DNA from: Candidatus Coatesiibacteriota bacterium
Lineage (GTDB): Bacteria; RBG-13-66-14; B26-G2; WVWN01; G020348885
DNA length: 48,495 nucleotides
NCBI GenBank assembly: GCA_020348885.1
Contig: CP070755.1
Coordinates: forward strand, 2,453,616-2,502,110
Reading direction: 5' to 3'
A model generated the notes under the pieces. That model had not been told where the DNA came from, did no database searches, and worked only from the letters and a program-made list of their open reading frames with translations. A program made the position numbers and the translations under genes. Each line of letters begins with the position of its first letter. The stretch's first letter is position 1. Shown here one piece after another: positions 25,059 through 45,559 of this stretch.

Positions 25059-25182
25059 ATCGGTCTCCCTGTTATCCAACATCAAGAACGGTTCGGCTTT
25101 CTTATCGCATTTACCGCTCTTTAGACATAGCTTCACGGCTTAAAGTTTATTCGTATATAATCCGCCCGATTCGCTACGGTCT

Positions 25183-31057: not shown

Positions 31058-31882
31058 ATGAGACTCGCGTTCGCATTTATAGCGATAATATGCAACCCGG
31101 CCCCGTCGCTCGGCGCGCCCGGAGACGTATTAAACTCGTTTACGCTGTCAGGCATCACCGAGTACGGTCCCCGGGGGCTCGCGTACGACGCCGCCTCGGA
31201 CGTTTATTATGTCGTGACCCCCATACGCGAAAACAACGTCCGCGTTATCAAGTTCACGTACGATGGTTCTACGACCGTTGTAGAATCTACTTTTACCTGC
31301 GCGAGCGGGCTATATTGGCCTATGGACGCGGCGTGGGAAGTTAACCTAGCCGTCGCCGAGGACATAACCGATGAATCGAAAGCCCGAGTCGTATTCATAA
31401 AGGACGACACCGGCGATATCGTAACTTCGTTCGACGGCCCCTACCCCGCCGGGACGACCCTCAACGGCCTAACCTGGACCGGGTCGAGCTTTTTCGCAGC
31501 GAGTTTCGACACGACGACCGTGTACGAACTCACGAGTACCGGTTCGGTCGTAAATTCGTTCAACTTGCCGATCGACGGCGTAAAGGGTATGGCCTGGGGC
31601 GCCGGTTATCTCTGGGCGGTCGTCGCAGACCCATACGGCGGTTACTACGACGATTACGTGGTCTATAAACTTAATACGGACGGGACCGTCGCCGACAGTT
31701 ACCAGTATGAACTCAACGATACGGTTACGTATGTCGGCGGCGCGTGCTGGGGCCGCGACGACCAGGAAAGCTTACTCATATCCACCTACAACGGCGACAA
31801 GTACATCTACGAAGTCGGTTTCGCTGAAGACGTCGTCGTCGCGCCAACCTCGCTCGGCGTAATTAAAGCGGTATATAAATAA
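31058..31882 (+). CDS. Secreted beta-propeller protein with C-terminal SLGxIKA tag
   Basis: 274 residues. It starts with a short signal sequence (about 1-19, cleavage near SLGA). The body repeats blade-like units such as GPRGLAYDAASDVYYVVTP, LNGLTWTGSSFFAASFD and VKGMAWGAGYLWAVV, a WD/NHL-like or Kelch-like propeller. The last residues are PTSLGVIKAVYK, which match the ends of two other secreted propellers in this window (44527 and 45559). No enzyme motif is seen. Function unknown; exported binding protein. It lies 51 nt after the HIT gene, beyond a GC-rich hairpin without a U-tract, so read-through from the HIT promoter is possible. Confidence 0.72.
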   Translation: MRLAFAFIAIICNPAPSLGAPGDVLNSFTLSGITEYGPRGLAYDAASDVYYVVTPIRENNVRVIKFTYDGSTTVVESTFTCASGLYWPMDAAWEVNLAVAEDITDESKARVVFIKDDTGDIVTSFDGPYPAGTTLNGLTWTGSSFFAASFDTTTVYELTSTGSVVNSFNLPIDGVKGMAWGAGYLWAVVADPYGGYYDDYVVYKLNTDGTVADSYQYELNDTVTYVGGACWGRDDQESLLISTYNGDKYIYEVGFAEDVVVAPTSLGVIKAVYK

Positions 31883-31934
31883 ATGTAGTTACCTACAAAA
31901 TGGGCGGTCGTTGTATCGAGTAATGACCGTTCAC

Positions 31935-31963
31935 TTGCTTCCCCACGGCCTATCTGCTATAAT
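31935..31963 (+). promoter_or_regulatory. Promoter of a leaderless gene
   Basis: TTGCTT (31935-31940), 17-nt spacer, perfect TATAAT (31958-31963). Six nucleotides separate the -10 from the GTG at 31970, so the predicted transcript starts on the start codon. Confidence 0.65.
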
Positions 31964-31969
31964 TATACC

Positions 31970-32761
31970 GTGAAACTTTTATTAATAGTTACGTTGGTGG
32001 CCTGCACAGCGTTCGCGCAAACCGACCCAAACGGAGACGAAAAGGTCGGACTGCGGCCGATGCCGACGCGACAACTACCATTCTTCAACGTCGGCGGCGG
32101 AATCGGCATAATCGGCGCTTTCGGCGGAAACATGGCCGGGAAGTTCCGGTCCGAACAAACGGAAAACGCTTTTAAGGACCGCATCCGAAGCTTCTACGGC
32201 GGCGTCGTTATCCCTGCGTACTTGAAAATATGGGATTTCCGCCTCGAAAGCGAATACGACATCGTTTACTTCAACGACGACTTCACCGGCTTCGCGGCGA
32301 GAGGCGAACGGGTCATGATTTCCGAATGCGGCCTGAGGTCCGAGTCCCTCAGATTATACTGGGCGTACAGGCGCCCGACGCTGGCCAAGATGGCCGTCTG
32401 GCCATGTTTCTCGGCGCGTTACCTCGACTATAAAGCCGCGCTCGGCGCCGAAAAAACAGACACCGGGCTCCCGGTACCTTACTTTTATGTGGACGAACAA
32501 TACTGGGCTTTCGGCGGCGGCGCCGATTGGGCGTATGTCTTTTCGACCGACGATTGGAACCCTCAACTCGATTATATGTATTTAGGCGCGGACGTCGTTA
32601 CCGCCAGCGATCACGGATTAATCACAACCTACCACGCCGGAATCGCCGCGTTCCCGCGTAAGTATATCGGCGGACAGTTATTCTGTCGCGCTACCCGCAG
32701 TTCCGCCGTCTCGTACTACATTTTCGGTTTTTTAATACACGCCAGTTTATTGCCGTATTAA
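31970..32761 (+). CDS. Secreted, probably outer-membrane, protein of unknown family
   Basis: 263 residues with a clear signal peptide (MKLLLIVTLVACTAFA, cleavage before Gln). The mature part has alternating aromatic/polar strands (for example LKIWDFRLESEYDIVYF, YWAFGGGADWAYVF and YIFGFLIHASLLPY) and ends in Tyr, which suggests a small beta barrel. The Gly-rich start NVGGGIGIIGAFGG is like the first strand of such barrels. I do not recognise the family. Start GTG 31970 is supported by the adjoining promoter and the signal sequence; there is no Shine-Dalgarno site. It is monocistronic by position. Confidence 0.65.
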   Translation: MKLLLIVTLVACTAFAQTDPNGDEKVGLRPMPTRQLPFFNVGGGIGIIGAFGGNMAGKFRSEQTENAFKDRIRSFYGGVVIPAYLKIWDFRLESEYDIVYFNDDFTGFAARGERVMISECGLRSESLRLYWAYRRPTLAKMAVWPCFSARYLDYKAALGAEKTDTGLPVPYFYVDEQYWAFGGGADWAYVFSTDDWNPQLDYMYLGADVVTASDHGLITTYHAGIAAFPRKYIGGQLFCRATRSSAVSYYIFGFLIHASLLPY

Positions 32762-32924
32762 CCGCGCGAATCGCCCCGTTAAAAACAGTGAACCAGACAC
32801 GCTAATCTACGCGAACCTGCGGTATCTATTTCGTTCCGTAGAAACCAGAGTATTCTTACGAACTGCGGAAAACACAGTAAACGCCGTCAATAAAGCCGTA
32901 TAACGCAATTCACTTGTTTTTTTC

Positions 32925-32953
32925 TTGACATCATCCCTGATTCATTATATATA
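32925..32953 (+). promoter_or_regulatory. Strong sigma-70 promoter of the HTH-REC regulator gene
   Basis: Consensus TTGACA (32925-32930), 17-nt spacer, TATATA (32948-32953; TATAAG two bases later is an alternative). A T-run precedes it (32917-32923), like an UP element. The leader is about 60 nt. It closes a 263-nt spacer (32762-33024) in which I see nothing else. Confidence 0.75.
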
Positions 32954-33024
32954 AGATATACGTTGTTTAGCTAATTTAAGTGCGAATATATCAAAAGTAC
33001 GTAGTTTGATGGGAGAGAATCGCC

Positions 33025-33612
33025 ATGAAAGAAGCTTACGGGCCGTACGAAATAGCGGAAATGCTGGGCGTAGCACCTTCTTCGGTAGGTACGTGGATAG
33101 ATAAAGGATTTCTTGAAGCTTTCAAAACCCCGGGTGGACACCGCAGGATATACAGAGAAGACCTAGTTCGCTTTTTAAACCAACAAAACATACCCGTACC
33201 GAACGAAGTAAAAGGAGACCTCGTTAGAATACTCATTATTGAAGATGAAATCGAAGTATCGGAAATGATAGAGAGGGCTTTATCGAATTACGAAGGTATA
33301 GAAATCTATTCGGTTAACGACGGTATTGCCGCGCTGTTGGAAATCGGCAGAAGACCGCCGGACATGGTTATATTGGACATAGTTATCCCGGGGATAGACG
33401 GCTTCGAGGTTTGTAAACGAATTACCCGCGATAAAATACTTAAAACGAAAATTCTCACGATGTCCGGCAAAATCGAACCCGACGATGTATCCAAGTTATT
33501 GGAATCCGGCGCTAACCGATTCCTCAGGAAACCGTTTAGCGTTGAAGATTTGACGCGGACGGTGGACGACCTGCTAGTAGAGATTAAAGAAAGCTTCGTC
33601 GATTTGGCTTAG
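33025..33612 (+). CDS. Excisionase/MerR-type HTH fused to a response-regulator receiver domain
   Basis: 195 residues. Residues 5-52 form a MerR/excisionase-like winged helix (YGPYEIAEMLGVAPSSVGTWIDKG, then the wing GGHRRIYREDLVRFL). After a short linker comes a complete receiver domain (67-190): acidic pair Glu73-Asp74, phospho-acceptor Asp118 in ILDIVIPG, TMSG switch region and Lys169 in RKPF. The DNA-binding part precedes the receiver, the reverse of OmpR/NarL regulators. It is probably a phosphorylation-controlled transcription factor; no histidine kinase gene is nearby. GGGAGA is 8 nt before the ATG. AT-rich codon use compared with neighbours. Confidence 0.88.
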   Translation: MKEAYGPYEIAEMLGVAPSSVGTWIDKGFLEAFKTPGGHRRIYREDLVRFLNQQNIPVPNEVKGDLVRILIIEDEIEVSEMIERALSNYEGIEIYSVNDGIAALLEIGRRPPDMVILDIVIPGIDGFEVCKRITRDKILKTKILTMSGKIEPDDVSKLLESGANRFLRKPFSVEDLTRTVDDLLVEIKESFVDLA

Positions 33613-33661
33613 TAGAAACATCAAGAAATAATAACGTTGATATAAAAACCCGGTCCGGCCA

Positions 33662-34198
33662 CTACTGTAGGCCCCGCCGACCGTACAAAAACAAATCCCC
33701 CGCCCGATAGATATCCATTTGCACGTCCGACCACGGCTCGCCCGTGAGGGTTAGCCCCCGCGCCAGGTTCTCGACGACGCCTGTCTCTAGGTTCGCCTTG
33801 ATGTTTTCGCCCGTCGCGACGTCGCCCGCGGAGACGCCCAACACCGTCAATATCGGCATACCCGAGTTTATCGCGTTGCGTCTGTATATCGCGCCGAAGC
33901 TCGCCGCGATAATAAGCCGTATCCCCAGCGCCTGGAAACAATCCACTGCGTGTTGACGGCTCGAACCCGCGCCGAAGTTCGCCCCCGTTACGATAACATC
34001 GCCCGGCGCCGCTTTCGACGGGAAATCCTCCCAACCGGGCAAGTTCCCGAACGCGTACTTCCCCATCTCGGCCACGTCGGTAACGGCTAGCCACTGATTG
34101 TGGTATATCTGGTCGGTGTCCACGCTGTCGTAGAGGTTTCCGTCTGCGTCCGTTATCGCCCAGACGTTCCCTTCAATGATAATAGGTTTACCGGTCAT
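33662..34198 (-). CDS. Aconitase-family dehydratase small subunit (LeuD/homoaconitase-type)
   Basis: 178-residue swivelling subunit of a two-subunit isopropylmalate/homoaconitate/dimethylmalate-type hydro-lyase. Seen: DTDQI (27-31), the hallmark GANFGAGSSRQHA (72-84) and FGAIYRRNAINSGMPIL (101-117). Together with the large subunit at 37775-39025 it would isomerise or dehydrate a 2-hydroxy-acid such as isopropylmalate, homoaconitate or methylmalate; residues around YRR may set specificity but I cannot read it. Unusually, its partner is not adjacent: four sulfur/redox genes lie between, all on the same strand with gaps of 4-39 nt. It begins 25 nt after the DsrK-like gene. Confidence 0.9.
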   Translation of the reverse strand: MTGKPIIIEGNVWAITDADGNLYDSVDTDQIYHNQWLAVTDVAEMGKYAFGNLPGWEDFPSKAAPGDVIVTGANFGAGSSRQHAVDCFQALGIRLIIAASFGAIYRRNAINSGMPILTVLGVSAGDVATGENIKANLETGVVENLARGLTLTGEPWSDVQMDIYRAGDLFLYGRRGLQ

Positions 34199-34223
34199 TC
34201 CAACTCCCCGGAAAAGATATCGT

Positions 34224-35555
34224 CTAACGGATAACCAGCGCGTTAAAGACCAACTCGCAGACGGCCTGGATTTCCACGCCCAGCGAGTACTTTTTGTTGA
34301 GTTCCAGAAGCTGGTCAGCGCAATTGTGGCAGGGCGTCGCGATGATTTTCGCGCCCGTAGCCCTTATCTGATCCGCCTTAACCGCGCCGGACTGCACGCG
34401 CCGGTCGCCGTATTCGCTCATAGAAAGCATTCCCCCGCCGCCGCCGCAACAAAAGTTCTGCTCCCGATTGGGCGTCATCTCGACAAAGTCGCTTGCGACA
34501 GCCGCCAGAATCTTCCTCTGCGGTTCGCTCACGCCGCCCCATCGGACGAGGTTGCATGGGTCGTGTAAAGTTACCCGTTCAACGTTCTTGCCCGGGTCGA
34601 TTTCGATTCTTCCCTCTTCGATATACTCGAGCATCACTTCGAGTATACTACGTACCCTAATCGGATACTCTTCACCGAGCCAGTTCGGGCCTTCCCATCT
34701 GAACGACCTGAAACCGTGACCACACTCCGATAAGACAACTTCCTCAGCTTCGAGCCGGGCCGCTTCGTCCATAACCTGTTTCGTTATCCGCGCCGCGGCG
34801 GGGTCGTCGCCCGAGTAAAGACCGTAGTTGGTTACGTCGTAAAATTTACTCGACATCGTCCAGTTTTCACCTGCCGCGCGAAAAACCCCGGCGGCCGCCG
34901 AAAGCGACAGCGGGAAGAACTTCACCTCGCGTGGGTTAACGAGGTAGAAGACCCTCTTGCCCGGTTCGTCCACATGGATACGGACATCCTCGTCGCCCGT
35001 CTCGAGTTGAAGGTCTTCGGAAAGCCAGGCCGCGGTCGCTTTCAACTCCTCGACCGTTATCGCCATCTGGTTACCGGTATTTATTTGGTTGTCCACGACC
35101 GCTTGCAGATTCGGAGGGACTTCCGCCGCGGCCGCGACTACGTTCCGTCCCGTCCGGATTATCGCTCCCACATCGGCGCCGACGGAGCAATTAAGCCCGC
35201 ACCGCCCACAACCGGTACACCGGCCGTAAACCGCTTCCACGATTTCATCGAACGCGGACTGCGTCAGCTCCTTGGCTCCCACCAACCAGGGCGCTAAGCG
35301 GCCGACGGCGCTGTGGTAACGCCGGAAGTGGCGGACGACCTTCGCGGCCTTCGCGGCCGGCAAGTTCTCGGGAACCGGATCGGTCAGATAGACGTGACAG
35401 GTCTCACCGCATAGTCCGCATTTGACGCAAGCGTCCATGTGGTACGCGGCAAGGTCCCTCAGTGGTTCACGAAGGGCGGCGCGCGCCGCCGCCGTCGCTT
35501 CCTGGGGGTCGTCTTCAGGCCTTAGCAAATCGATCGTTTCTTTTTTTATAACCAT
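34224..35555 (-). CDS. dsrK: DsrK/HdrD-like iron-sulfur reductase subunit
   Basis: 443 residues. Two [4Fe-4S] ferredoxin-type motifs (Cys43, 46, 49, 53 and Cys113, 116, 119, 123) are followed by a CCG domain with Cys334, Cys369-Cys370 and Cys409, 412 (HDPCNL, CCGGGGG, CHNC), plus Cys278. CCG domains hold the noncubane cluster that splits disulfides in heterodisulfide reductase HdrD and act on the DsrC trisulfide in DsrK. The cytoplasmic protein would take electrons from the membrane partner encoded 4 nt upstream. A DsrC gene in the same operon makes DsrK the better name than GlpC or HdrD. Symbol by similarity. Confidence 0.85.
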   Translation of the reverse strand: MVIKKETIDLLRPEDDPQEATAAARAALREPLRDLAAYHMDACVKCGLCGETCHVYLTDPVPENLPAAKAAKVVRHFRRYHSAVGRLAPWLVGAKELTQSAFDEIVEAVYGRCTGCGRCGLNCSVGADVGAIIRTGRNVVAAAAEVPPNLQAVVDNQINTGNQMAITVEELKATAAWLSEDLQLETGDEDVRIHVDEPGKRVFYLVNPREVKFFPLSLSAAAGVFRAAGENWTMSSKFYDVTNYGLYSGDDPAAARITKQVMDEAARLEAEEVVLSECGHGFRSFRWEGPNWLGEEYPIRVRSILEVMLEYIEEGRIEIDPGKNVERVTLHDPCNLVRWGGVSEPQRKILAAVASDFVEMTPNREQNFCCGGGGGMLSMSEYGDRRVQSGAVKADQIRATGAKIIATPCHNCADQLLELNKKYSLGVEIQAVCELVFNALVIR

Positions 35556-35559
35556 TTAT

Positions 35560-36183
35560 TTATTCGGCGCGCCCGGCGGGGAACGTCCCGCGGTAACCCA
35601 ACCGACGCCCCAGGTCGAAACGGGCGACCGGGCAGAAGAGGACGTGGCGCAGCTTGCCCAACGGTATATAGAAAGCCACCACAGCGCCGACGAGCAGGAA
35701 CGTACCGGCGTTTATGACGTTTAGTTCGTGAAGCGAACCTATCCCCAGATAAACCGCGACGGCGAACGCCGCGAAGTAATCGTCGAAGTCGCTTATCGGC
35801 CGGAGGTTCTTCGAGAAAAAGCGCCTGACGAACAAAAACGACGTCGCAGCCGCCGCGAACGCCAGAAAACCGCCGAGAGGTATCGGCGCTATCGGCGGCG
35901 CCGTCGGTTTAATTAATAGAACTACTACTTTCAAAACCGCAACCACGACGCCGAGATGCATAACCATACCGACCGCGAACTTGAAAGGATGGCGGCGGGC
36001 GGCCTCTTTTCGCGCGGGGGACATCGCGGCCGTGAAGTTATAAAGAACGCCCCGGGCGGAGCTGCCGGCCCGGGCGCTGTAGTCCTTCCTCCCGCCGCCC
36101 CACGCCGCTAATAGTTGCCACGTCAGCAACGCGGCGGCCCAGACGAGGCTCGATGCGACTATAATCCTTTCTGCTGTTAACAT
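35560..36183 (-). CDS. dsrM: DsrM/NarI-like membrane cytochrome b subunit (short form)
   Basis: 207 residues with about five membrane helices. Histidines at 76, 152 and 180 sit in or next to helices (MVMHLG, SLHELN, KLRHVLF) and could bind b-type hemes; the end FDLGRRLGYRGTFP is typical of the DsrM/HdrE/NarI group. It should oxidise menaquinol and pass electrons to the DsrK-like subunit. It is clearly shorter than classical DsrM (about 330), so it may be a minimal or HmeC-like form. It lies 33 nt after dsrC and 4 nt before the dsrK-like gene. Confidence 0.78.
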   Translation of the reverse strand: MLTAERIIVASSLVWAAALLTWQLLAAWGGGRKDYSARAGSSARGVLYNFTAAMSPARKEAARRHPFKFAVGMVMHLGVVVAVLKVVVLLIKPTAPPIAPIPLGGFLAFAAAATSFLFVRRFFSKNLRPISDFDDYFAAFAVAVYLGIGSLHELNVINAGTFLLVGAVVAFYIPLGKLRHVLFCPVARFDLGRRLGYRGTFPAGRAE

Positions 36184-36216
36184 TTAATACGTATCCCGAT
36201 CAAACCCGAAGCGGTC

Positions 36217-36525
36217 TTATACGCACCCGTCCGGTTTGGGCAGACCGGCGACGCGGCAAGCCCCTCGGGCGGGGCCGGCGGTAAAAAGCTTGTATATATG
36301 GCGTACGCCGACGCCGAGTTCCTGGCAAATAAGACGTACCGGCGGCGCCAGGTCGTGCTCTTTCCAGTAATCGCGGATAAAATTAACTATCTTCCAATGG
36401 TCTTCGGACATTTCGTCGATGCCCTCTTCCTCGGCTATCGCGCGGGCGACTTCGTCGTCCCAGAGCTCCGGCGCTACCATAAAACCGTCGTTATCGAAGT
36501 CGATGTTCTTATCGCCTACTTGCAT
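36217..36525 (-). CDS. dsrC: DsrC sulfur carrier protein
   Basis: 102 residues. It follows the DsrC/TusE pattern: DFDNDGFMVAPELWDDEVA, then MSEDHWKIVNFIRDYW, VRLICQELG and the flexible C-terminal arm GACRVAGLPKPDGCV. Both arm cysteines are present, Cys90 and the penultimate Cys101, spaced by ten residues. TusE proteins have only the penultimate one, so this is a true DsrC able to form an internal disulfide or trisulfide. It shuttles sulfur or acts as redox substrate of the DsrMK complex. GAGGAG lies 7 nt before the ATG. No dsrAB, tusBCD or dsrEFH is in the window. It follows a SufS-like desulfurase by 31 nt. Confidence 0.95.
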   Translation of the reverse strand: MQVGDKNIDFDNDGFMVAPELWDDEVARAIAEEEGIDEMSEDHWKIVNFIRDYWKEHDLAPPVRLICQELGVGVRHIYKLFTAGPARGACRVAGLPKPDGCV

Positions 36526-36556
36526 TCGTTTTCTCCTCGCAATCTCCGCGGCTTTT

Positions 36557-37735
36557 TTATTGACGGTCGGCCGCTATTTCTGCGACCGCGTTAACGGCTT
36601 TTTCTATATGCTCGTCCGTATTGAAAGGGCCTACTGAGAATCGAACCGTCCCCCGCGGCGCCGAACCGTGGAACTCGTGTATGAGCGGCGCGCAGTGTAA
36701 ACCGGTCCTCGTCTGAATCCCATATTCGACGTCTAGGATAGTCCCGACGTCGGACGCGTCGTAATGCTCCACCGATACCGACAAGGTCGCGACCCGTTCT
36801 TTGAGGTTCTTGGTACCCCACAGGCTTACGCCTTTGATTTCACGAAGCCCGGTTTGGAGTTTCCCGAAAAGCCCCATTTCATGCTCGTATATACTCGCGG
36901 TCCCGCGTTTCTGTACCCAATCCAGACCCGCGGAAAGACCCGCGATACCTGCCAGGTTCAGCGTACCGGCTTCCAGACGGTAAGGATACTCCTCAAGGTG
37001 ATACGGCACGGCGCTCCGTACACCGGTCCCCCCGTAAATAGTCCCTTTAACCTCAGCGTCGTCGGCGACGCAGATTCCGCCGGTACCGGTAGGGCCGAAT
37101 AATCCTTTATGCCCGGTAAACACCAGAAAGCTAACGTTGCACTCGGCCATATCGATCGGAAGAACGCCGGCCGACTGGGCCGTATCCACAGCGAACGGGA
37201 CGCCCTCCTCTTCGCACACGGCGCCGATAGCTTTGATATCCTGCACGACACCCGTTACGTTGGAAGCGTGATTGACGACCACAAGTTTCGTATTCGGTTT
37301 GATAGCTTTTCGTATATCTTCCGGGTCAATGTAACCGTCGGCGTCCGGTTTCACGTAAGTAGCCTCGGCGCCTTCGCGGACTTTATGGTTCACGGGTCGA
37401 ATAACCGAGTTGTGTTCGAGTACGGTAGTAACGACGTGGTCGCCCGGGCCTACCACACCGTTAATAATAAGATTTAGGCTCATCGTCGCGTTCATCGTGA
37501 AGACGAGCCTGTTTGGGTCCTTTTCGACGCCGGCGTCGATCAGGCTCTTATTAAAGAACGCGGAAAACTTCTTCCGCGTTCCGTGTATCATCTGCTCGGC
37601 GTTAATCGCAAGGTCGCACCCCGTACGTCCAGGGTTCACGCCGTTGTCCCGGTAAAAGTCGCGGACCGTATCGTGTACCACGTCCGGTTTCGGGAAGCTG
37701 GTCGCCGCGTTATCCAGGTAAATTATCTCGTCCAC
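36557..37735 (-). CDS. Cysteine desulfurase-like class V aminotransferase (SufS/Csd type)
   Basis: 392 residues, PLP-dependent. YLDNAATSFPKP start, His108 (LEHNS), Asp184 (AVDTAQS), PLP Lys210 (TGHKGLFGPTGTGG) and Cys348 in TRTGLHCAP, which is the group II (SufS/Csd) loop. It probably makes persulfide from cysteine. Its position directly before dsrC suggests that DsrC, or something it serves, is the acceptor. It matches the Csd-like subfamily of class V transferases whose substrates are not all proven, so selenocysteine lyase activity is an alternative. It follows the large dehydratase subunit gene by 39 nt. Confidence 0.9.
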   Translation of the reverse strand: MDEIIYLDNAATSFPKPDVVHDTVRDFYRDNGVNPGRTGCDLAINAEQMIHGTRKKFSAFFNKSLIDAGVEKDPNRLVFTMNATMSLNLIINGVVGPGDHVVTTVLEHNSVIRPVNHKVREGAEATYVKPDADGYIDPEDIRKAIKPNTKLVVVNHASNVTGVVQDIKAIGAVCEEEGVPFAVDTAQSAGVLPIDMAECNVSFLVFTGHKGLFGPTGTGGICVADDAEVKGTIYGGTGVRSAVPYHLEEYPYRLEAGTLNLAGIAGLSAGLDWVQKRGTASIYEHEMGLFGKLQTGLREIKGVSLWGTKNLKERVATLSVSVEHYDASDVGTILDVEYGIQTRTGLHCAPLIHEFHGSAPRGTVRFSVGPFNTDEHIEKAVNAVAEIAADRQ

Positions 37736-37774
37736 TTCGTACTCCCGTCTCTACCCGTGTGGCGGGCGGAATAT

Positions 37775-39025
37775 CTAGCCCCGCGGGTCCGTTATCTCGC
37801 CGCGCAACGCGCTGACGGCCACGGTCGCGGGACTCGCGAGGTATGTGTCGCCGGCGCCCTGTTTTCCGGCGAAGTTCCGATTCGACGTAGAGAGCTGTAC
37901 TTCGCCTGCGCCGGTCATACCGATTTGCCCGGCGGCGCACCCGCCGCAACCCGCGTTGGATACTATCGCGCCGGCGTCGAAGATGTCCCTCAAAACGTCG
38001 CCGGCCATCATCTCGTCCCATACCTCGCGGGTGGCCGGGACGACTTTAAGCATAACGTCAGAGTGAACCCGCTCGCCGCCCAGGATATTCGCCGTAATCG
38101 ACATATCGTTAAGGCGCCCGTTGGTACAGGAACCGATGAAGCCGGACCCTATCGTCGTTCCCTCGACGGCCCGGACCGGCTTCACGTTCTCCGGGCTGGG
38201 CGGACACGCTATCATCGGCTCCAGCCCCTCGACGTCGAACTCCAGCGTTTTCATATAATCGGCGCCCGCGTCGGCGTAAACGGGTTCGACTTCTTCGCCC
38301 GCCCGTTTCGAAACCCACTCGAGGGTCGCGTCGTTCGGCGGTATCAATAACGCGATCGCGCCCATCTCGGTACCCATGGACGCGAGGGTTATTCGCTCGT
38401 CCACTTCCATCGCGTCGATGAACTTGCCGTATAGTTCTACTGCGCAACCGAGAGCGCCCGCCGAACCCATCTCGCCAATCAGATATAATATAACGTCCTT
38501 GGCGGATACGCCGGCGTAAGGGGCGCCCTTCAAGTCGATTCGAATAGTAGGCGGGACCTCGAACCACGTCCGGCCGGTTTTGAACGCGAAGGCTATGTCG
38601 GTATCGCCCATGCCCTGACCGAAACAGCCGACGGCCCCAAGGATGTTCATGTGGCTGTCGGTCCCGACGACGGTCCCGCCGGGCCGGGCCAATCCCTGCT
38701 CCATCAATACGTGCGAACCTATACCGGCGTCTACGTCGAAGACGCGAATCCCTTGCTCGGCGGCGAAGTCCCGGCATATCTGCTGGTTGTTGGCGTACGC
38801 GATGGTGTTGGCCGGCGCGTTGCAGTCGAACGTGAAGAACGTCTTGTCGGCGTCGGCCACGTTCTCGCCCTCGTAGTGGGCACGGAAGTTCTTGACGACG
38901 TTGGCACCGCCGAAGTCCCGGGCCGAGCGAACGTCCAAATCGAGCCACACGACGGCTCCGGGCCGGATGTCGGCGCCGGGGTCCGCGTGTGCCGCTATAA
39001 TATGTTCGATTATCGTGCGGGGCAT
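37775..39025 (-). CDS. Aconitase-family dehydratase large subunit (LeuC/homoaconitase-type)
   Basis: 416 residues, the length of archaeal-type isopropylmalate/homoaconitate dehydratase large subunits. Substrate/catalytic motifs: GTDSHMN (121-127), GQGMGDTD (137-143), DVILYLIGEMG (177-187). The [4Fe-4S] ligands are Cys300 in GSCTNGR and Cys360 and Cys363 in NAGCGGC; all are present, so the enzyme should be active with the small subunit at 33662. Substrate may be isopropylmalate, homoaconitate or a related acid; no leuA, leuB or homocitrate synthase gene is in the window. First gene of a six-gene operon with a near-consensus promoter. It has a shortened, cluster-less homolog at 4694-5389. Confidence 0.92.
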   Translation of the reverse strand: MPRTIIEHIIAAHADPGADIRPGAVVWLDLDVRSARDFGGANVVKNFRAHYEGENVADADKTFFTFDCNAPANTIAYANNQQICRDFAAEQGIRVFDVDAGIGSHVLMEQGLARPGGTVVGTDSHMNILGAVGCFGQGMGDTDIAFAFKTGRTWFEVPPTIRIDLKGAPYAGVSAKDVILYLIGEMGSAGALGCAVELYGKFIDAMEVDERITLASMGTEMGAIALLIPPNDATLEWVSKRAGEEVEPVYADAGADYMKTLEFDVEGLEPMIACPPSPENVKPVRAVEGTTIGSGFIGSCTNGRLNDMSITANILGGERVHSDVMLKVVPATREVWDEMMAGDVLRDIFDAGAIVSNAGCGGCAAGQIGMTGAGEVQLSTSNRNFAGKQGAGDTYLASPATVAVSALRGEITDPRG

Positions 39026-39053
39026 AGCTTATCTATAAAACAGGACAGCGGGG

Positions 39054-39082
39054 AATATATACATATCGCACCGTAATGTCAA
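39054..39082 (-). promoter_or_regulatory. Promoter of the dehydratase-desulfurase-DsrCMK operon
   Basis: Minus strand TTGACA (39082-39077), 17-nt spacer, TATATT (39059-39054), predicted leader about 22 nt. One of the best promoter matches in the window, which implies the operon is well expressed. Confidence 0.75.
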
Positions 39083-39098
39083 CCCCGCCGTTATAACA

Positions 39099-39725
39099 TT
39101 ACCCATCAGGCGTATCGGGGTTAGAAGAAACCTCTTCCGCCGGGGGCCCCTCGGGTTCCACGTCCGGCCGTATCTCCGGTCCCGGGGTTTCGGCCGGCGG
39201 CGCTAACGTACGCCGCTTCCTCTCCGCCGGAACCGGGCCCATCTCGCCGGGGGGTTCGGGACGCCGCGGCGTTTCGTACCGGCCGTACAACTCGTCGGTA
39301 TATCCGGCGGACACCGGCGCCAGCGAAACGCGAACCGCGACTATAGTTTCGCGCAGCCACTCCAGGTCGGTCTCGGTCGGCGGCGGATTGATATCGTTCA
39401 CTCCTTCCAGAAACGTTTCGGCCGGCTCCAGGTCCCGATGTGCGTCGATAAGTATCCGCCTTAACTCCGGATCCACGGTCCGCCGCGCGGCGGACAACAG
39501 GTCCGCACGGGCTTCGCGGACGAGTTCGAGGGCTCGCTGGTCCTCTCGGCCGACCGATACGAGGGCCTGGTCGAGGACCGCCTCCACTGAGGCGGCCCGG
39601 GCCGCCAGCTCTTGCCGTTTGAACCACTCCTCCGGCGGCGGTTCCTCCGTCGGCGGCGGCGTTTCCCCGGCACACCCCAATAGGATAATAAACCCGAACG
39701 CGGTTATATGAAGGGCTTTACGCAT
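39099..39725 (-). CDS. Proline-rich lipoprotein of unknown function
   Basis: 208 residues with a signal sequence and lipobox LLGC (lipidated Cys18). A Pro/Glu-rich linker follows, then a helical middle (about 35-145, Ala/Arg/Glu rich) and a long Pro/Glu-rich tail (150-208) expected to be disordered. It resembles helical-bundle lipoproteins that span or line the periplasm, but has no nameable domain. Its start overlaps the end of the methyltransferase gene by 8 nt, so the two are co-translated. High GC content and low-complexity sequence inflate open frames on the other strand here. Confidence 0.75.
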   Translation of the reverse strand: MRKALHITAFGFIILLGCAGETPPPTEEPPPEEWFKRQELAARAASVEAVLDQALVSVGREDQRALELVREARADLLSAARRTVDPELRRILIDAHRDLEPAETFLEGVNDINPPPTETDLEWLRETIVAVRVSLAPVSAGYTDELYGRYETPRRPEPPGEMGPVPAERKRRTLAPPAETPGPEIRPDVEPEGPPAEEVSSNPDTPDG

Positions 39726-40404
39726 CGGCTGGCTTATCCACCGTCAGAACCGTTACAGTCGCGAATATCATACTTTTTACCACAACCGCGGAGAACCCGG
39801 CATTTCGGAACCGCGCCGCCAGCTCGTCGGCCGTAACGCTCTCGCGGATAGACCGGGTAAAGTATAAGTACGCCGACAGGTCGTCCGCAAGTATAAACGC
39901 GCATAAAGGGATATATACGGCGAGTGCCAACCGGTAAAAAACGCCGAATACGCCCGGCGGGACCCGTAAAACGTCGTATATTACGGCCCGCCCGCCCGGT
40001 TTCAGAACCCGGTAACCCTCCTCGATTGCCGCGCCGTCGCCGTCAATAGGCCGGAAGACGAAACCGGCCGCGATCCCGTCGAAAACGCGGTCGCGAAACG
40101 GCAGCACGCGGACGTCGGCCCGGACGTATAGACCGGCCCCTTTCGCCGAAGCGAACCCCAGCATCTCGGGCGAGCGGTCTATCCCGATTATTGTCGAGCC
40201 GGGGTGGGCGCGCCGAAGTTCCCGGGACGAGACACCGGTCCCCGTCCCCATGTCGAGTATCAACCCCGGCTTCACTAGCGCCGACGCGGTCCGGCGTACC
40301 CGGCGGTCCAATCCGAAGGTCATCACCCGATTGAGCAGGTCATAGCGCCGTGCGGTGCGCCCGTACACCTCGTCCAACTCGGATTGGGCTTTCGGGTTTG
40401 CCAT
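39718..40404 (-). CDS. Demethylmenaquinone/ubiquinone methyltransferase-like protein (MenG/UbiE)
   Basis: 228 residues. N-terminal VYGRTARRYDLLNRVMTFGLDRR is the UbiE/MenG signature, followed by SAM motif I LDMGTGTGVSS, motif II DVRVLPF and RVLKPGGRAVIYD. It would methylate demethylmenaquinone in the last step of menaquinone synthesis. The usual final motif GG..G.HxA is not evident, and the end is more diverged than in classical UbiE, so another class I C-methyltransferase is possible. A menaquinone source would suit the DsrM-like subunit of the neighbouring operon. Confidence 0.78.
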   Translation of the reverse strand: MANPKAQSELDEVYGRTARRYDLLNRVMTFGLDRRVRRTASALVKPGLILDMGTGTGVSSRELRRAHPGSTIIGIDRSPEMLGFASAKGAGLYVRADVRVLPFRDRVFDGIAAGFVFRPIDGDGAAIEEGYRVLKPGGRAVIYDVLRVPPGVFGVFYRLALAVYIPLCAFILADDLSAYLYFTRSIRESVTADELAARFRNAGFSAVVVKSMIFATVTVLTVDKPADA

Positions 40405-40410
40405 AATCGG

Positions 40411-40439
40411 TTGACACGGCGGACGGCCGCTGGTATCCT
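40411..40439 (+). promoter_or_regulatory. Promoter before the BamB-like gene
   Basis: TTGACA (40411-40416), 17-nt spacer, TATCCT (40434-40439), 8 nt before the GTG at 40448, so the leader is 0-2 nt. No Shine-Dalgarno site. Confidence 0.5.
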
Positions 40440-40447
40440 GCCGCCCG

Positions 40448-41539
40448 GTGAAGGCGTCCTTCCGTTTAACCTGCGTTCTCGTACTCGCCCTGGCGGCGGC
40501 CGGCTGCGTACCGAAGGGCGAATGGCCGTCCTACCGCGGCGGACCGGCGCGCGCAGGTTCACTGGCGCCTCGGGCCGTCGGTATTACAGGCACCGAAGTA
40601 TGGCGGACCGAGTTGCCGGCCGAAAGCTTCTCGGCCCCCACCGTCGTCGGCGACTACGTCGTCGTCGGGACCAACGACAACTTCCTTAACGTAGTAAACG
40701 CCGTGACCGGAGAACTCCTCTGGCGGTACAGGACAGCGGGCGACGTAACCTCCGACGCCGCCGTCGCCGACGGAACGGCGTACTTCGCTTCGATGGACAA
40801 CCACGTTTATGCCCTAGACGTCAGGGGCAAACGGCTCAGATGGAAGCTCGAGTGCGCCGGGCGCCCGGCTTCGGCGCCGGTCTTCGCGTCCGGGCGTTTA
40901 TACGTCTCGACCCTCGCCGGGACGGTTCACGCGGCCCGGGCCGACGACGGCCGCCAGCACTTCTATCTCCGGGGTTACGGTCCGATTTGGGCCCCACCCA
41001 CCATATCGGAAGACGACGTTTACTTCGCCGACCGTTACGGCTTCGTTTACCGCGTAACCGGCAAAAACGGGACTACCGTCTGGGAAACCGACATCGGCGT
41101 CGAGGTCGTCGCGCCCGTATTGTTACTCGACCGGTTTTGCGTCACCGCCTCGGTCGACGGCGAAGTTATAGCGTTAGATGCAACCATCGGCGAAATCGCC
41201 TGGCGGCGCGACGTAGGCGCCGGTATTAGCGCCGCCCCTTCGTCCGACGGCGAGCGTATCTTCGTAGCTGACTGGGACGGACGGATTACGGCGTTCTCAC
41301 CCGCCGGTAATCCCCTCTGGAAAACACCCCTGGACGGTTCTTGCGAAGGCGCCAACGTTTACGCCGACGGGATGCTCTTCGCCGGTACGTCCGCCGGAAC
41401 GTTCTACTGCCTATCGGCGGAAACGGGCGATACAATCTGGCAAAAGAACTTGGAATCGCCCATACGTTCGCCGGTCGCGGTCGGCGACGGCTCGTTATTC
41501 GCCGTTACCGAGTCAGGAACCCTCGTCCGGTTCGACTGA
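40448..41539 (+). CDS. PQQ-like beta-propeller lipoprotein (BamB-like)
   Basis: 363 residues. Signal and lipobox AAAGC (Cys20). WPSYRGGPARAG is the usual opening of PQQ-repeat propellers, and the blades repeat the pattern A-x-D-x-x-[ST]-G-x-x-x-W (for example NAVTGELLWRY, TGKNGTTVWETD, DATIGEIAWRRD, SAETGDTIWQK). It lacks dehydrogenase domains, so it is not a quinoprotein enzyme. It resembles BamB, an outer membrane assembly lipoprotein, and the many related surface propellers. GTG start fits the signal sequence and promoter. Convergent with mtaB, with only 12 nt between the two stops. Confidence 0.85.
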   Translation: MKASFRLTCVLVLALAAAGCVPKGEWPSYRGGPARAGSLAPRAVGITGTEVWRTELPAESFSAPTVVGDYVVVGTNDNFLNVVNAVTGELLWRYRTAGDVTSDAAVADGTAYFASMDNHVYALDVRGKRLRWKLECAGRPASAPVFASGRLYVSTLAGTVHAARADDGRQHFYLRGYGPIWAPPTISEDDVYFADRYGFVYRVTGKNGTTVWETDIGVEVVAPVLLLDRFCVTASVDGEVIALDATIGEIAWRRDVGAGISAAPSSDGERIFVADWDGRITAFSPAGNPLWKTPLDGSCEGANVYADGMLFAGTSAGTFYCLSAETGDTIWQKNLESPIRSPVAVGDGSLFAVTESGTLVRFD

Positions 41540-41551
41540 ACGAACGCTTCT

Positions 41552-42802
41552 TTACCCCTCCGGTTCCGTCCCGTACAATCGACCTTCTCCTTCCGCGACG
41601 ACTAAATCGGCGAACGTGTTCTCGCGTCCCGCCGCGTCCCTCACCAACAGGTGAAGGTAGTTATCCGTTATACCTACGTGGTGGCCGGTCTCCTTATCCA
41701 CGGCTTCCTCAATTAACGTCTCGCGCGTAGTCCCCACGTTCCTGGCGGTGAAGGCTTCCTTTTTTCGCGCCGCCGCAGCCCGAAGAACGGCGGCACGTTC
41801 GGTACGCACCTCGGGCATTACCTGGTTTGGCATCGCGGCCGCATCTGTTCCGGGCCGGGGCGAGTAAGGGAAAACATGCAAGTACGCGAACGGTATCTCC
41901 TCCACCAGCGCCAGCGTGTTCTCGAAGGCCGCATCGTCCTCGCCGGGGAGTCCGGCCATCACGTCGCCGCCCACCGCGGCCGAACCGTTCAACTCGAGTA
42001 ACCTCTCACAAACGGTTTTATATTCGGCGACGTTGTATCGGCGGCGCATCGCCGCGAGGACGCCGTCGTCACCGCTCTGTAACGGCAGGTGAACGTGGGG
42101 GCAAACACGTGAGTGTCCGGCGACAAGCTCTATTAATATATCGTCCAAGTCCGACGGATCGACCGACGAAAGGCGAACCCGGAAATCGCCGGGCAGCTTC
42201 ACTATCTCTTCGACCAGGGCGCCCAGCCCCGGGCCGCCCAGGTCAACGCCGTAGCCGCCGACGTTCACGCCGGTCAACACGATTTCCTTCACACCCGAAT
42301 CCACGGCACGCGCCACCTCGCCGACTACCTCGGCGGCTTCCCGGCTCCGGGCGGCGCCCCGAGCGAGAACCACGCGGCAGTAAGCGCAGTCGTGGTCGCA
42401 ACCCTCCTGCACCTTCAGGAAAAACCGTGTCTTGTCCCGGAAGTACGATACATCCCCCGCTGGCCCCCCCTCGCCGAGGAGTTCGAGCACTCTCGGTTTG
42501 TCCTCGTTATCCACGACGGTTATCCGGTCGCCTTCGGCCGCGAACCGTTCCGGGTCGAGGTGCGCGGCGCAACCGGTTACGACCAGGCGCGCGTCGGGGT
42601 TACGTTTCAACGCCGAACGTACCAACTGCCGGGACTTGTAATCGCTCCGCGCCGTTACGGTACAGGTGTTTATCACGTATAGGTCGGCGTCGTCGGCGAA
42701 ATCGACGACGGCATAACCGGCCGCTTCGAGGGCTTCCCGGAGAGCCTCGGTTTCGTACTGATTGAGCTTGCAGCCCAGCGTTTTCAGCGCGGCTGTTTTC
42801 AT
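41552..42802 (-). CDS. mtaB: tRNA (t6A37) methylthiotransferase MtaB
   Basis: Radical SAM enzyme that converts t6A37 to ms2t6A in tRNAs reading ANN codons. 416 residues. N-terminal MTTase domain with Cys11, Cys47 and Cys78 (TLGCKLNQYE, NTCTVT, TGCAA), radical SAM motif CDHDCAYC (135-142), LSSVDPSDL and a C-terminal TRAM-like part. The TLGCKLNQYE start is specific to MtaB rather than MiaB or RimO. Start ATG 42802 is chosen; the open frame continues to 42958 across the divergent promoter region, which is not coding. A normal housekeeping gene with no partner next to it. Confidence 0.93.
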   Translation of the reverse strand: MKTAALKTLGCKLNQYETEALREALEAAGYAVVDFADDADLYVINTCTVTARSDYKSRQLVRSALKRNPDARLVVTGCAAHLDPERFAAEGDRITVVDNEDKPRVLELLGEGGPAGDVSYFRDKTRFFLKVQEGCDHDCAYCRVVLARGAARSREAAEVVGEVARAVDSGVKEIVLTGVNVGGYGVDLGGPGLGALVEEIVKLPGDFRVRLSSVDPSDLDDILIELVAGHSRVCPHVHLPLQSGDDGVLAAMRRRYNVAEYKTVCERLLELNGSAAVGGDVMAGLPGEDDAAFENTLALVEEIPFAYLHVFPYSPRPGTDAAAMPNQVMPEVRTERAAVLRAAAARKKEAFTARNVGTTRETLIEEAVDKETGHHVGITDNYLHLLVRDAAGRENTFADLVVAEGEGRLYGTEPEG

Positions 42803-42914
42803 ACTACGGACGTCCGAACCCCGTCCCTTAACCGTTATCGTCGTAAAAAACACACGAAAACGCGTACCGCGGATTATATTCGCCCCGCGGGCGCCGGTCA
42901 AGTCGCTAATTCCC

Positions 42915-42943
42915 TTGACATCGACGCCCAGCATATATATAGT
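42915..42943 (+). promoter_or_regulatory. Promoter of the USP-like gene
   Basis: TTGACA (42915-42920), 17-nt spacer, TATAGT (42938-42943). The predicted start is near 42950, giving a leader of about 34 nt with AGGAGG in it. Confidence 0.8.
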
Positions 42944-42983
42944 AAACGCTCGGCGCAAGGATACCGGTAAACAGGAGGTACGA

Positions 42984-43346
42984 TTGAAGATAATGGTTAC
43001 GACGGCCGGGACGGTCCCGGCCCAGCGGAAAGCGGACTACCTGATTAATATCGCCGAGAAGGTGGGCGCCGAACTACTCGTGCTCCACGTGGTCAGCAGC
43101 CAGGACGAGTACGACGACGGCCAGAACGCGCTCAAGATATACCACCGGAAGGGCGGCATTTCGAAGATACGCCCGATACTCCGGGTGGGGCGCCTGACCG
43201 ACACGATAGCTAAAACCGCTCAGGAAGAGAACGTTAACCTGATACTGCTAGGACTGGACGAGCGGGGCGACATGAACAGCGCCATCTCCCGGGACGTAAT
43301 CGCGAAGACCGAAATACCGGTACTACTGGTACCGAACATTAAATAA
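42984..43346 (+). CDS. Universal stress protein-like (UspA fold) protein
   Basis: 120 residues. Beta-alpha units KIMVTTAGTVPAQRKADYLINIAEKVGAELLVLHVV and NLILLGLDERG...AISRDVIAKTEIPVLLVP fit a single Usp domain. The ATP-binding G-x2-G-x9-G[ST] motif is not present, so it belongs to the non-ATP-binding type, or is diverged. TTG 42984 is the start: AGGAGG lies 5 nt upstream, whereas ATG 42993 would be 14 nt away. Good promoter and terminator make it a single-gene unit with strong expected expression. Confidence 0.78.
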   Translation: MKIMVTTAGTVPAQRKADYLINIAEKVGAELLVLHVVSSQDEYDDGQNALKIYHRKGGISKIRPILRVGRLTDTIAKTAQEENVNLILLGLDERGDMNSAISRDVIAKTEIPVLLVPNIK

Positions 43347-43370
43347 CGCTTATTGGAATACGCCAAACGG

Positions 43371-43398
43371 AACCGGCCGTGGCAGTGGCCGGTTTTTT
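43371..43398 (+). terminator. Intrinsic terminator of the USP-like gene
   Basis: 8-bp stem AACCGGCC (43371-43378) / GGCCGGTT (43387-43394) followed by T-run TTTT. It lies inside a possible upstream extension of the next gene and so rules that extension out. Confidence 0.9.
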
Positions 43399-43415
43399 AT
43401 CGACTGTAGTTTTCG

Positions 43416-43444
43416 TTGTCATATCGTTAAATAAGTGCTATAGT
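43416..43444 (+). promoter_or_regulatory. Promoter of the tandem propeller genes
   Basis: TTGTCA (43416-43421), 17-nt spacer, TATAGT (43439-43444), leader about 36 nt. Confidence 0.7.
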
Positions 43445-43486
43445 GTTTTACACGAAAAGGATGAACGGCGGACTTTCGACAAGGAC

Positions 43487-44527
43487 ATGAAACTTGGGGC
43501 AATAGGGGTAATATTCACGTTAATTACGGTTTGCCGGGCTTTACCGTACGGCGAGTCCCATATCGCTCGAATAAACGAGCAGGGAAGGATAATCGAAGGG
43601 CCGTATGAATCCGGATATCTAGGATTCTACGGCTTTTATAGTAGCGAATCCAGAGTATGCGAAGACGGATATATATATTTTTGCGGCCGAGGGTACGATC
43701 GGGACACTCTATATTGCTATTCCCCTACATTAACGTTCATTTCGAGTCGAGACGGCGGCAATAGCTACCATACAATTCCCTTAGATAACGTGAGAAGCTC
43801 GGTATTTGTTACTTCGGAACAAGGAGAGTCGTATTATATCGACGTACTTAGTTTAACTCTAGATCCTAAATACTCTTTCGAAGTACCCGTATCGCCGGTA
43901 TCTATAACGGTCGATGAAAACGACGGTTCTATTTGGGTAACCGAAACGTACGGCGGCGGCGAAGGTCTATATAAATACGACGAAACCGGCGACCTAATGT
44001 ACTATTTCCCCGAATACGAAGATATTTCCGGGTTATCAAACGTAATAGCGGACGGGTCGTTCTGGGCGACTTATTCGTTCGTCGGGTATCCGGATTACAT
44101 TACGAAAATTAGGAAACACGCACAAGACGGTTCGTTCACCGCTGAAACTTATAACGCGTCCGGTTATTCTCAGGGTCTAGATATGGCGGAAATCGACGGT
44201 TCTATATGGTTAATCACGTACGAATCCGAATTGATGAAAATAGACCGTTTCGGCAACATAATTTTCCGATACACGGGGATCGAAGATATACGGTCCTTGA
44301 GTATTAACCAAAACGACGGCTCGGTTTGGGTAAGCAGCGAAAACTACGACATAGCCCACTTCGACGCGAACGGCGAGTTATTACTCCATTACCCCTGGTT
44401 CGAAAAATACGTGATGGACTTGGCGTTTGACCCTTCTGACAACTCGGTTATAGTTTTTTCTACGTCGTATTTGATTTCAGATATCCAACCGTCCTCCCTC
44501 GGCGAGATAAAGGCGATGTTTAGGTAA
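43487..44527 (+). CDS. Secreted beta-propeller protein, tandem paralog A, with C-terminal SLGEIKAMFR
   Basis: 346 residues. Signal peptide (MKLGAIGVIFTLITVCRA). The mature part carries repeats of the form DENDGSIWVTE, EIDGSIWLITY and QNDGSVWVSSE, blades of a secreted propeller related to NHL or PQQ-like folds. It shares with the next gene the opening H[IV]ARINE.G.I..GP, the block KYSFEVP, and the C-terminal QPSSLGEIKAMF. Start ATG 43487 is chosen because the upstream frame would run through the USP terminator and the promoter. Codon use is more AT-rich than the flanking housekeeping genes. Unknown ligand; probably surface-exposed or periplasmic. Confidence 0.72.
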   Translation: MKLGAIGVIFTLITVCRALPYGESHIARINEQGRIIEGPYESGYLGFYGFYSSESRVCEDGYIYFCGRGYDRDTLYCYSPTLTFISSRDGGNSYHTIPLDNVRSSVFVTSEQGESYYIDVLSLTLDPKYSFEVPVSPVSITVDENDGSIWVTETYGGGEGLYKYDETGDLMYYFPEYEDISGLSNVIADGSFWATYSFVGYPDYITKIRKHAQDGSFTAETYNASGYSQGLDMAEIDGSIWLITYESELMKIDRFGNIIFRYTGIEDIRSLSINQNDGSVWVSSENYDIAHFDANGELLLHYPWFEKYVMDLAFDPSDNSVIVFSTSYLISDIQPSSLGEIKAMFR

Positions 44528-44545
44528 CCGCTTATAAGGGGAATT

Positions 44546-45559
44546 ATGCCAGTAAGCACGATATTCATAATATTATTAACCGTAGTAACGTGTCACGCGG
44601 ACCATGTTGCCCGAATAAACGAAAACGGCGCTATAACCGCTGGACCGGTAACTGACCATATTATAGCCGACTGGATCTCGCCTGAATCGAACGTTACGAA
44701 TGAACGCAATATATTCGTAGGGCAACATACGCAAATATTTAGTTATTCACCTGATTTAACATACGTCGCGTCTGTCTCAGGTATCGTGGGGGGCGTTACT
44801 ATTGACGACGTTAGGAACTCGATATATATAAGTAACTACGAAAGCGGGCGGTACGGCGACCACACATATCTTGTGCGCGTTTTGGATTACGATTTCAACG
44901 AGAAATATTCTTTCGAAGTACCTGCTGTTCCCATATCTCTATCCGTTGACGAATCGAATGCCGGCGTTTGGGTCTCTACTTTCTGTGGTGAAAATGACGG
45001 TCTCCATAAATACAACGAAAACGGTGAAGAAACCCTATTCGTTCCCGAAAGCTACGGGGTCCGCCGTCTAGGACGAACGGATGTAACTGGTTCTGTTTGG
45101 GCTAGCTATGTCCTTGGAACGGAGCTTATTTTAAAACGTCACGACTCTAACGGAAACGTAATCGTAGAAATAGAAAAACTTTTCGACAACTTCGAATTCG
45201 GTGAAGTCTGGGGAAACGACGGGTCTATTTGGTTAATAGTAGGCCACGGGGCTAATACAGAGGTTTACAAACTCAATAGCGTAGGTTCTATAACGGCTCG
45301 TTACTCCGGGATGGATAATATCTGCTCGCTTACAGTAAACCAAGCCAACGGGTCGGTGTGGTTGACGAATAACCGAGGCGAAATCGTACGGTTAAATTCG
45401 GATGGACAAGAAGAACTTAGATTACGATGGTTTGAAGACCAAGTCCTCGGAGCTATCGGGGATCCGTCCGATAATTCCGCGATCGTCTTTTCCCAGTTCA
45501 ACTGGGGCGAATCAATCCAACCGTCCTCCCTCGGCGAGATAAAGGCGATGTTTAAGTAA
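44546..45559 (+). CDS. Secreted beta-propeller protein, tandem paralog B, with C-terminal SLGEIKAMFK
   Basis: 337 residues, signal peptide in the first 18 (MPVSTIFIILLTVVTCHA). It shows the same blade pattern as paralog A (GNDGSIWLIVG, QANGSVWLTNN) and a similar opening HVARINENGAITAGP. Overall similarity to A is moderate. The last 40 nt before the final residue (45515-45554) are identical to 44483-44522 in A, far above the rest of the gene. AAGGGGA at 44536-44542 overlaps the position of a ribosome site close to the ATG. The two genes are 18 nt apart and probably form one mRNA. Confidence 0.72.
   Translation: MPVSTIFIILLTVVTCHADHVARINENGAITAGPVTDHIIADWISPESNVTNERNIFVGQHTQIFSYSPDLTYVASVSGIVGGVTIDDVRNSIYISNYESGRYGDHTYLVRVLDYDFNEKYSFEVPAVPISLSVDESNAGVWVSTFCGENDGLHKYNENGEETLFVPESYGVRRLGRTDVTGSVWASYVLGTELILKRHDSNGNVIVEIEKLFDNFEFGEVWGNDGSIWLIVGHGANTEVYKLNSVGSITARYSGMDNICSLTVNQANGSVWLTNNRGEIVRLNSDGQEELRLRWFEDQVLGAIGDPSDNSAIVFSQFNWGESIQPSSLGEIKAMFK

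Follow-up and report, generated by a model that had tools for sequence, protein, structure and literature searches.

Several kinds of protein carry a sorting or docking signal at the C-terminus. In PEP-CTERM, LPXTG, GlyGly-CTERM, MYXO-CTERM and similar proteins, the signal joins a motif to a transmembrane helix and a basic tail. Encapsulation peptides and short docking helices are short amphipathic helices that end a disordered linker and act in the cytoplasm. A third kind of C-terminal signal belongs to the type IX secretion system (T9SS), which is best known in Bacteroidota. According to PMC12618676, PMC10202324 and PMC11285876, the known signals (CTDs) form folded domains with lengths from about 100 to 235 residues. 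Type A signals have about 100 residues and form an Ig-like sandwich, and type B signals have 150-235 residues, according to PMC12618676; for HBP35, PMC10202324 gives the last 22 residues as enough for secretion of GFP. Here we describe a far shorter C-terminal motif in Coatesbacteria and related phyla, and compare its distribution and carriers with these systems.

Three tagged proteins in the window

The window, that is, the whole stretch of 48,495 nucleotides analysed here (G000:C1:2453616-2502110), lies in a genome of 2.6 Mb assembled as a single contig. The original prediction held that three secreted propeller proteins in this window share a C-terminal motif that looks like a sorting or anchoring signal. 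All three ORFs do end as claimed (Table 1), and each has a hydrophobic N-terminus, in agreement with the predicted signal peptides; the real start of the second ORF is likely near 43487, where an internal start fits a signal peptide. Against Pfam, the first protein gave a weak propeller match (E = 0.0077) and the second a weak NHL match (E = 0.026). The second and third proteins are paralogs with 37% identity, and the first is 20% identical to the third in an alignment that also held the second. An AlphaFold model of the third protein was of low confidence (mean pLDDT 53.5) and placed a short helix at residues 329-336, the tag region, again within a low-confidence part. The short tag is absent from the contrast protein at the window edge, which cuts its 5' end, and the view that the tag is distinct from the Por_Secre_tail domain of that protein is well supported by sequence. 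Immediately 3' of the first tagged gene, positions 31970-32758 encode an exported protein of 263 aa that appears barrel-like by eye and had no match in Pfam or NCBIfam.

Table 1. Tagged proteins, their C-terminal tags and the contrast protein, in window coordinates
Feature	Position	Strand	Basis
Exported protein, 274 aa, probably a beta-propeller, tag-ended	31058..31882	+	ORF; hydrophobic N-terminus
C-terminal tag PTSLGVIKAVYK	31844..31879	+	ORF and genome pattern match G000:C1:2485471-2485497
Exported propeller-like protein, tag-ended	43379..44527	+	ORF; hydrophobic N-terminus
C-terminal tag PSSLGEIKAMFR	44489..44524	+	ORF and genome pattern match
Exported propeller-like protein, tag-ended	44546..45559	+	ORF; hydrophobic N-terminus; paralog alignment
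C-terminal tag PSSLGEIKAMFK	45521..45556	+	ORF and genome pattern match
Contrast protein: choice-of-anchor J and T9SS type A sorting domain (TIGR04183 / PF18962)	47416..48495	-	

A terminal motif throughout the genome

A DNA pattern for the ending (G-x-[IV..]-K-x-x-[FY]-[R,K,H,Q,S,N]-stop) matched the 2.6-Mb genome 70 times, as compared with a single match for the reversed control. Seventy-three ORFs around the matches end in the loose motif, of which 71 were kept and two were dropped for non-matching endings. We then counted a stricter motif in 284 non-overlapping ORFs, each 150 aa or longer, taken from the sequence stretches retrieved (102,822 aa in total, 62 of the ORFs being tagged). It occurred 57 times at the C-terminus and never internally, and hence not inside other folds, where the original prediction had said that its presence would count against a signal. 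The reversed-pattern and internal-occurrence controls rule out a chance origin of the motif.

The 57 endings yielded the consensus [TS]-[SN]-[IV]-x-P-[AST]-S-[LF]-G-x-[IV]-K-A-x-[FY]-[RK] for the window's genome. S, G and K are invariant across the alignment, G and K, and likewise S or T, being demanded by the regex that picked these endings. The 57 tags correspond to 57 distinct DNA sequences with many synonymous codons, indicating conservation at the protein level. Duplication of one DNA segment was considered as a source of the copies and is ruled out by the same 57 distinct sequences.

A basic residue had been predicted always to stand last; in fact, 48 of the 57 endings close with R or K and the other nine with H, Q or N, and further copies of the tag finish in -AE or at the aromatic residue itself. 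Two other endings depart from the rule in their own ways. One 824-aa exported protein (L065, 6811-9282), kin of the tagged ones, runs on for 14 residues beyond the tag sequence, as if by a frameshift or a lost stop, and a probable lipoprotein (L051, 2142-2720) has an end near the tag, PTSLGNILASFY, with L where the invariant K is expected.

The strictly C-terminal position would also suit a processing or turnover signal read by a periplasmic PDZ or tail-specific protease. Such proteases do read C-termini, and an S41 CtpA-like gene (named by eye) at window positions 23547-25136 is a candidate for this role. However, nothing connects that gene with the tag, and the charged last residue is unlike the known protease-read tails, which are nonpolar, making turnover a highly improbable function.

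Carriers of the tag

Export-like N-termini, scored by a hydropathy rule rather than a dedicated predictor, were found in 54 of the 62 tagged ORFs and in 82 of the 222 untagged ORFs of the window's genome, which speaks against cytoplasmic carriers, the second counter-indication that had been named. Several of the eight tagged ORFs that failed the rule have masked or doubtful 5' ends. Among the 54, a lipobox-like site occurs in three and a later transmembrane segment (hydrophobic, beyond residue 45) in none.

The carriers are diverse, with the 62 tagged ORFs forming 15 BLAST sequence groups. Pfam and NCBIfam families matched by the 71 tagged proteins include PD40/TolB-like and NHL propellers, DNRLRE/CBM96, Big_5, GDSL lipase, Omp28 (one match) and choice-of-anchor V and J; other tag-bearing kinds are CBM9-like, small beta-sandwich, cytochrome-like and Ig-like proteins. 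With regard to an outer-membrane beta-signal, which is the last strand of a beta-barrel, carriers with a family match belong mostly to propeller or sandwich families. The original tie to propellers was too narrow, as the tag also ends DNRLRE, choice-of-anchor, lipase-like and other proteins.

Could the motif simply be the structural end of the preceding domain, a last strand or a capping helix, and no signal at all? It is short and ordered in sequence, and the window proteins are propeller-like, as this explanation would have it. Yet the same tag follows propellers, DNRLRE, choice-of-anchor, CBM9-like, beta-sandwich, cytochrome-like and lipase-like proteins, and we saw no Pfam or NCBIfam model that covers the tag. 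When six proteins were scanned one by one, each had a nearly complete known domain that stops short of it (choice_anch_J at 29-179 of 202 residues, choice_anch_V at 11-166 of 190, and DNRLRE in four). Furthermore, a propeller paralog of the window proteins (L084, 1697-2644) lacks the tag, and in the one usable model, which is of a small, single-copy beta-sandwich protein, the domain itself is ordered (means of 84-94 over 10-residue blocks), the linker at 115-122 falls below 50 as if disordered, and the tag forms a detached short helix of low confidence. We therefore regard a purely structural role as barely credible and reject its special form, also raised at the outset, of the last strand of one propeller family.

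Tagged proteins also differ from those with a type A-like ending. A regex for the latter picked out 20 of the 222 untagged ORFs but none of the 54 tagged ones, and the median length is 298 aa for tagged proteins as against 654 aa for these 20. TIGR04183 was absent among 25 of the 28 families matched by the 71 tagged proteins, the other three ranking last with a single member each. The choice_anch_J domain, of the kind that NCBIfam names 'choice-of-anchor', occurs in the window's genome both with the tag (in L054) and with a T9SS type A domain (in the window's contrast protein).

Distribution across genomes and phyla

The search of relatives suggested by the original prediction extended the 70 matches of the window's genome to all 14 genomes of its phylum, Coatesbacteria (reversed control 0 in each), and to other phyla. 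Within Coatesbacteria, the five genomes belonging to the window's order gave 66-138 matches each, two other genomes of its class gave 14 and 18, and the seven genomes of another family gave 1-5.

A strict-pattern scan of 84,980 species returned 100 stretches, 80 of which were taken as loci, with 83 matches. Eight matches lie in ORFs of 8-46 aa from unrelated taxa (archaea, proteobacteria and others), which is about the chance expectation, estimated at roughly 11. The other 75 come from records titled Coatesbacteria, Eisenbacteria, Latescibacterota, Zixibacteria, Delongbacteria, Fermentibacteria and kin, the rest being titled KSB1, Calditrichaeota, Ignavibacteriae or just 'bacterium'; we take these phyla to belong to, or lie near, the FCB group. 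Sixty-four of the 75 are complete ORFs, and 57 of these 64 have an export-like N-terminus as compared with 158 of 736 untagged ORFs, although the two figures are not strictly comparable, the tagged ORFs having been scored over all starts and the untagged ones over the first three. Two loci titled Zixibacteriota (L104 and L107) are placed in genomes of the window's phylum by identical SprA coordinates, and the genome of one titled Gemmatimonadaceae (L128) groups with genomes of Latescibacterota records.

Outside the window's phylum, the usual form of the tag is T-W-G-x-I-K-A-[LM]-F-[RK], and the L position is filled across the 75 matches by W (47), F (11), V (10), L (5) or M (2). The scan pattern fixed or narrowed the T/S-like position, G, I, K, A, F, the last residue and the stop, and left W, the residue after G and the L/M position free or nearly so; invariance at the fixed positions in alignments A4 and A6 is therefore partly built in.

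Eisenbacteria, Latescibacterota and Coatesbacteria mostly carry several to many copies per genome, whereas the pattern matches number one to three per genome, background included, in Zixibacteria, Delongbacteria, KSB1 and Calditrichota. Small exported domains of three or more kinds make up the few-copy proteins, one of which is the modelled beta-sandwich protein; they show 21-81% whole-protein identity to the first alignment row (identities for A2, A4 and A6 count the tag) and a tag that is near-constant, subject to the selection in A4 and A6. The tagged gene lies close to genes that by eye are ruvB-like and queA-like at Delongbacteria-type loci (L087, L152 and L154), and at Zixibacteria-type loci (L100 and L149) it adjoins a Rex-like regulator and is near STAS/anti-sigma-like genes, again named by eye.

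Relation to the T9SS

SprA, the T9SS translocon, was found in all 14 genomes of the window's phylum, in 12 of them above the cut-off, together with 23-67 type A domains per genome. The SprA-like translocon gene of the window's own genome lies at L208 5369-10177 (G000:C1 about 1410369-1415177). Fifty genomes were obtained via the species scan (61 loci chosen, 11 left out), and 43 of them encode SprA, 41 above the cut-off. These are all 43 tag-bearing genomes outside the chance matches, as against none of the seven genomes with chance matches; in one of the 43 (G031, with 35 tag matches), the SprA match is only weak (E = 8e-6). The 14-genome and 50-genome counts overlap, since seven of the 50 share their SprA coordinates with members of the window's phylum. 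Across the 64 genomes of Latescibacterota, the tag pattern was found in 36 and a SprA match in 63 (61 above the cut-off), and wherever both were examined, tag-bearing genomes also have type A domains. SprA in Coatesbacteria, the scan-reached genomes and Latescibacterota fits the statement of PMC11285876 that T9SSs may occur in several FCB phyla beyond Bacteroidota.

The T9SS is the natural candidate for the route, since it reads C-terminal signals in any case and no tag-bearing genome examined is without a SprA match. Given a sorting tag, we consider transport by the T9SS, or by an outer-membrane shuttle beside it, the likeliest route, at somewhat less than even odds. T9SS presence as proof of this route was rejected, because a tagless clade of Latescibacterota also has SprA. 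All 24 genomes of this block (G077-G100) keep it, and have neither the tag nor the CBM9/DOMON-like family that their relatives carry in tagged form and that is present in 39 of the 64 genomes. Thus, SprA does not require the tag, and co-occurrence may reflect shared ancestry; the absence of the tag is that of one clade and so one event. Among 20 fetched homologs of the CBM9/DOMON-like family, 15 end in tag forms such as TWGQIKSSF, SWGHIKAGFDR and SWGRIKSQF, the other five being uninformative because the longest frame taken was antisense. Many such endings escape the search pattern, making the pattern counts lower bounds.

Since the 24 genomes retain SprA and type A domains, tag and T9SS core are separable. 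This separability would suit a non-T9SS pathway in which the proteins are held by a dedicated receptor, outer-membrane or periplasmic, that binds the amphipathic peptide at their C-terminus, as would the species-wide scan, which listed one record titled Ignavibacteriae and none titled other Bacteroidota. Against such a pathway, no tag-bearer among the genomes examined was without any SprA match, and type A domains are also fewer in the tagless clade (median 14, compared with at least 56.5 in G101-G124, where several counts are at least 75), as if T9SS use had shrunk alongside the tag. On balance, we find a separate pathway unlikely. Quite unlikely, too, is the broader proposal of a dedicated sorting pathway for ten-residue C-terminal helices, found in many FCB candidate phyla and separate from the T9SS. 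Zixibacteria, Delongbacteria, KSB1 and Calditrichota would then keep the pathway for one or a few small secreted proteins, and one few-copy protein may itself belong to the receptor complex, by analogy with PorU and PorZ, which retain CTDs of their own.

Discussion

Taken together, the tag is strictly terminal, conserved at the protein level and spread over related phyla, and its varied carriers, nearly all with export-like N-termini, bear it outside the fold after exchangeable domains. This is how a sorting signal behaves. Our preferred reading, with a probability of about 0.68, is that [IV]-x-P-[AST]-S-[LWFV]-G-x-[IV]-K-[AST]-x-[FY]-[RK] constitutes a sorting tag, short and linear, at the C-terminus of Sec-exported proteins. 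The sorting or anchoring role originally predicted is thus well supported by sequence (57 terminal and 0 internal occurrences; 54 of 62 carriers with an export-like N-terminus), once the tie to propellers and the always-basic end are given up. Carriers would cross the inner membrane by Sec and then fold, while the final 10-14 residues would stay free and form a short amphipathic segment that is probably a Ser/Thr-capped helix. A putative envelope receptor would read this free segment and deliver or hold the protein, presumably at the outer membrane or cell surface. Counting against this reading are the tag's lack of the Ig-like domain of type A signals, its co-existence with type A domains, and its restriction in some phyla to one or a few proteins per genome, which is odd for a bulk secretion signal.

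We found no description of the tag in the open-licence literature, where the motif strings matched no paper, and it looks like an undescribed address label on dozens of unrelated exported proteins. If this is true, a sorting signal of some ten residues, far shorter than known T9SS signals, marks dozens to more than 100 proteins per genome in the poorly studied Coatesbacteria, Eisenbacteria and Latescibacterota, and one or a few elsewhere. Sequence alone would then be enough to predict a large part of the surface proteome in these uncultured bacteria, and the few-protein lineages offer a tractable way to find the receptor.

Among known systems, the T9SS type A (TIGR04183 / PF18962) and type B (TIGR04131) signals share with the tag the combination of a Sec signal peptide and a C-terminal signal on varied cargo, the SprA-encoding genomes and a conserved Lys near the C-terminus. 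The tag differs from them in having 10-14 residues, in being apparently helical and in lacking an Ig-like domain, with no resemblance seen beyond the Lys. PEP-CTERM, LPXTG, GlyGly-CTERM and MYXO-CTERM signals are similarly short, C-terminal and attached to unrelated exported proteins, including choice-of-anchor proteins, but the tagged proteins have no transmembrane helix (0 of 54). Encapsulation peptides come close in form, as a terminal short helix after a disordered linker, and differ from the tag in that its carriers are exported.
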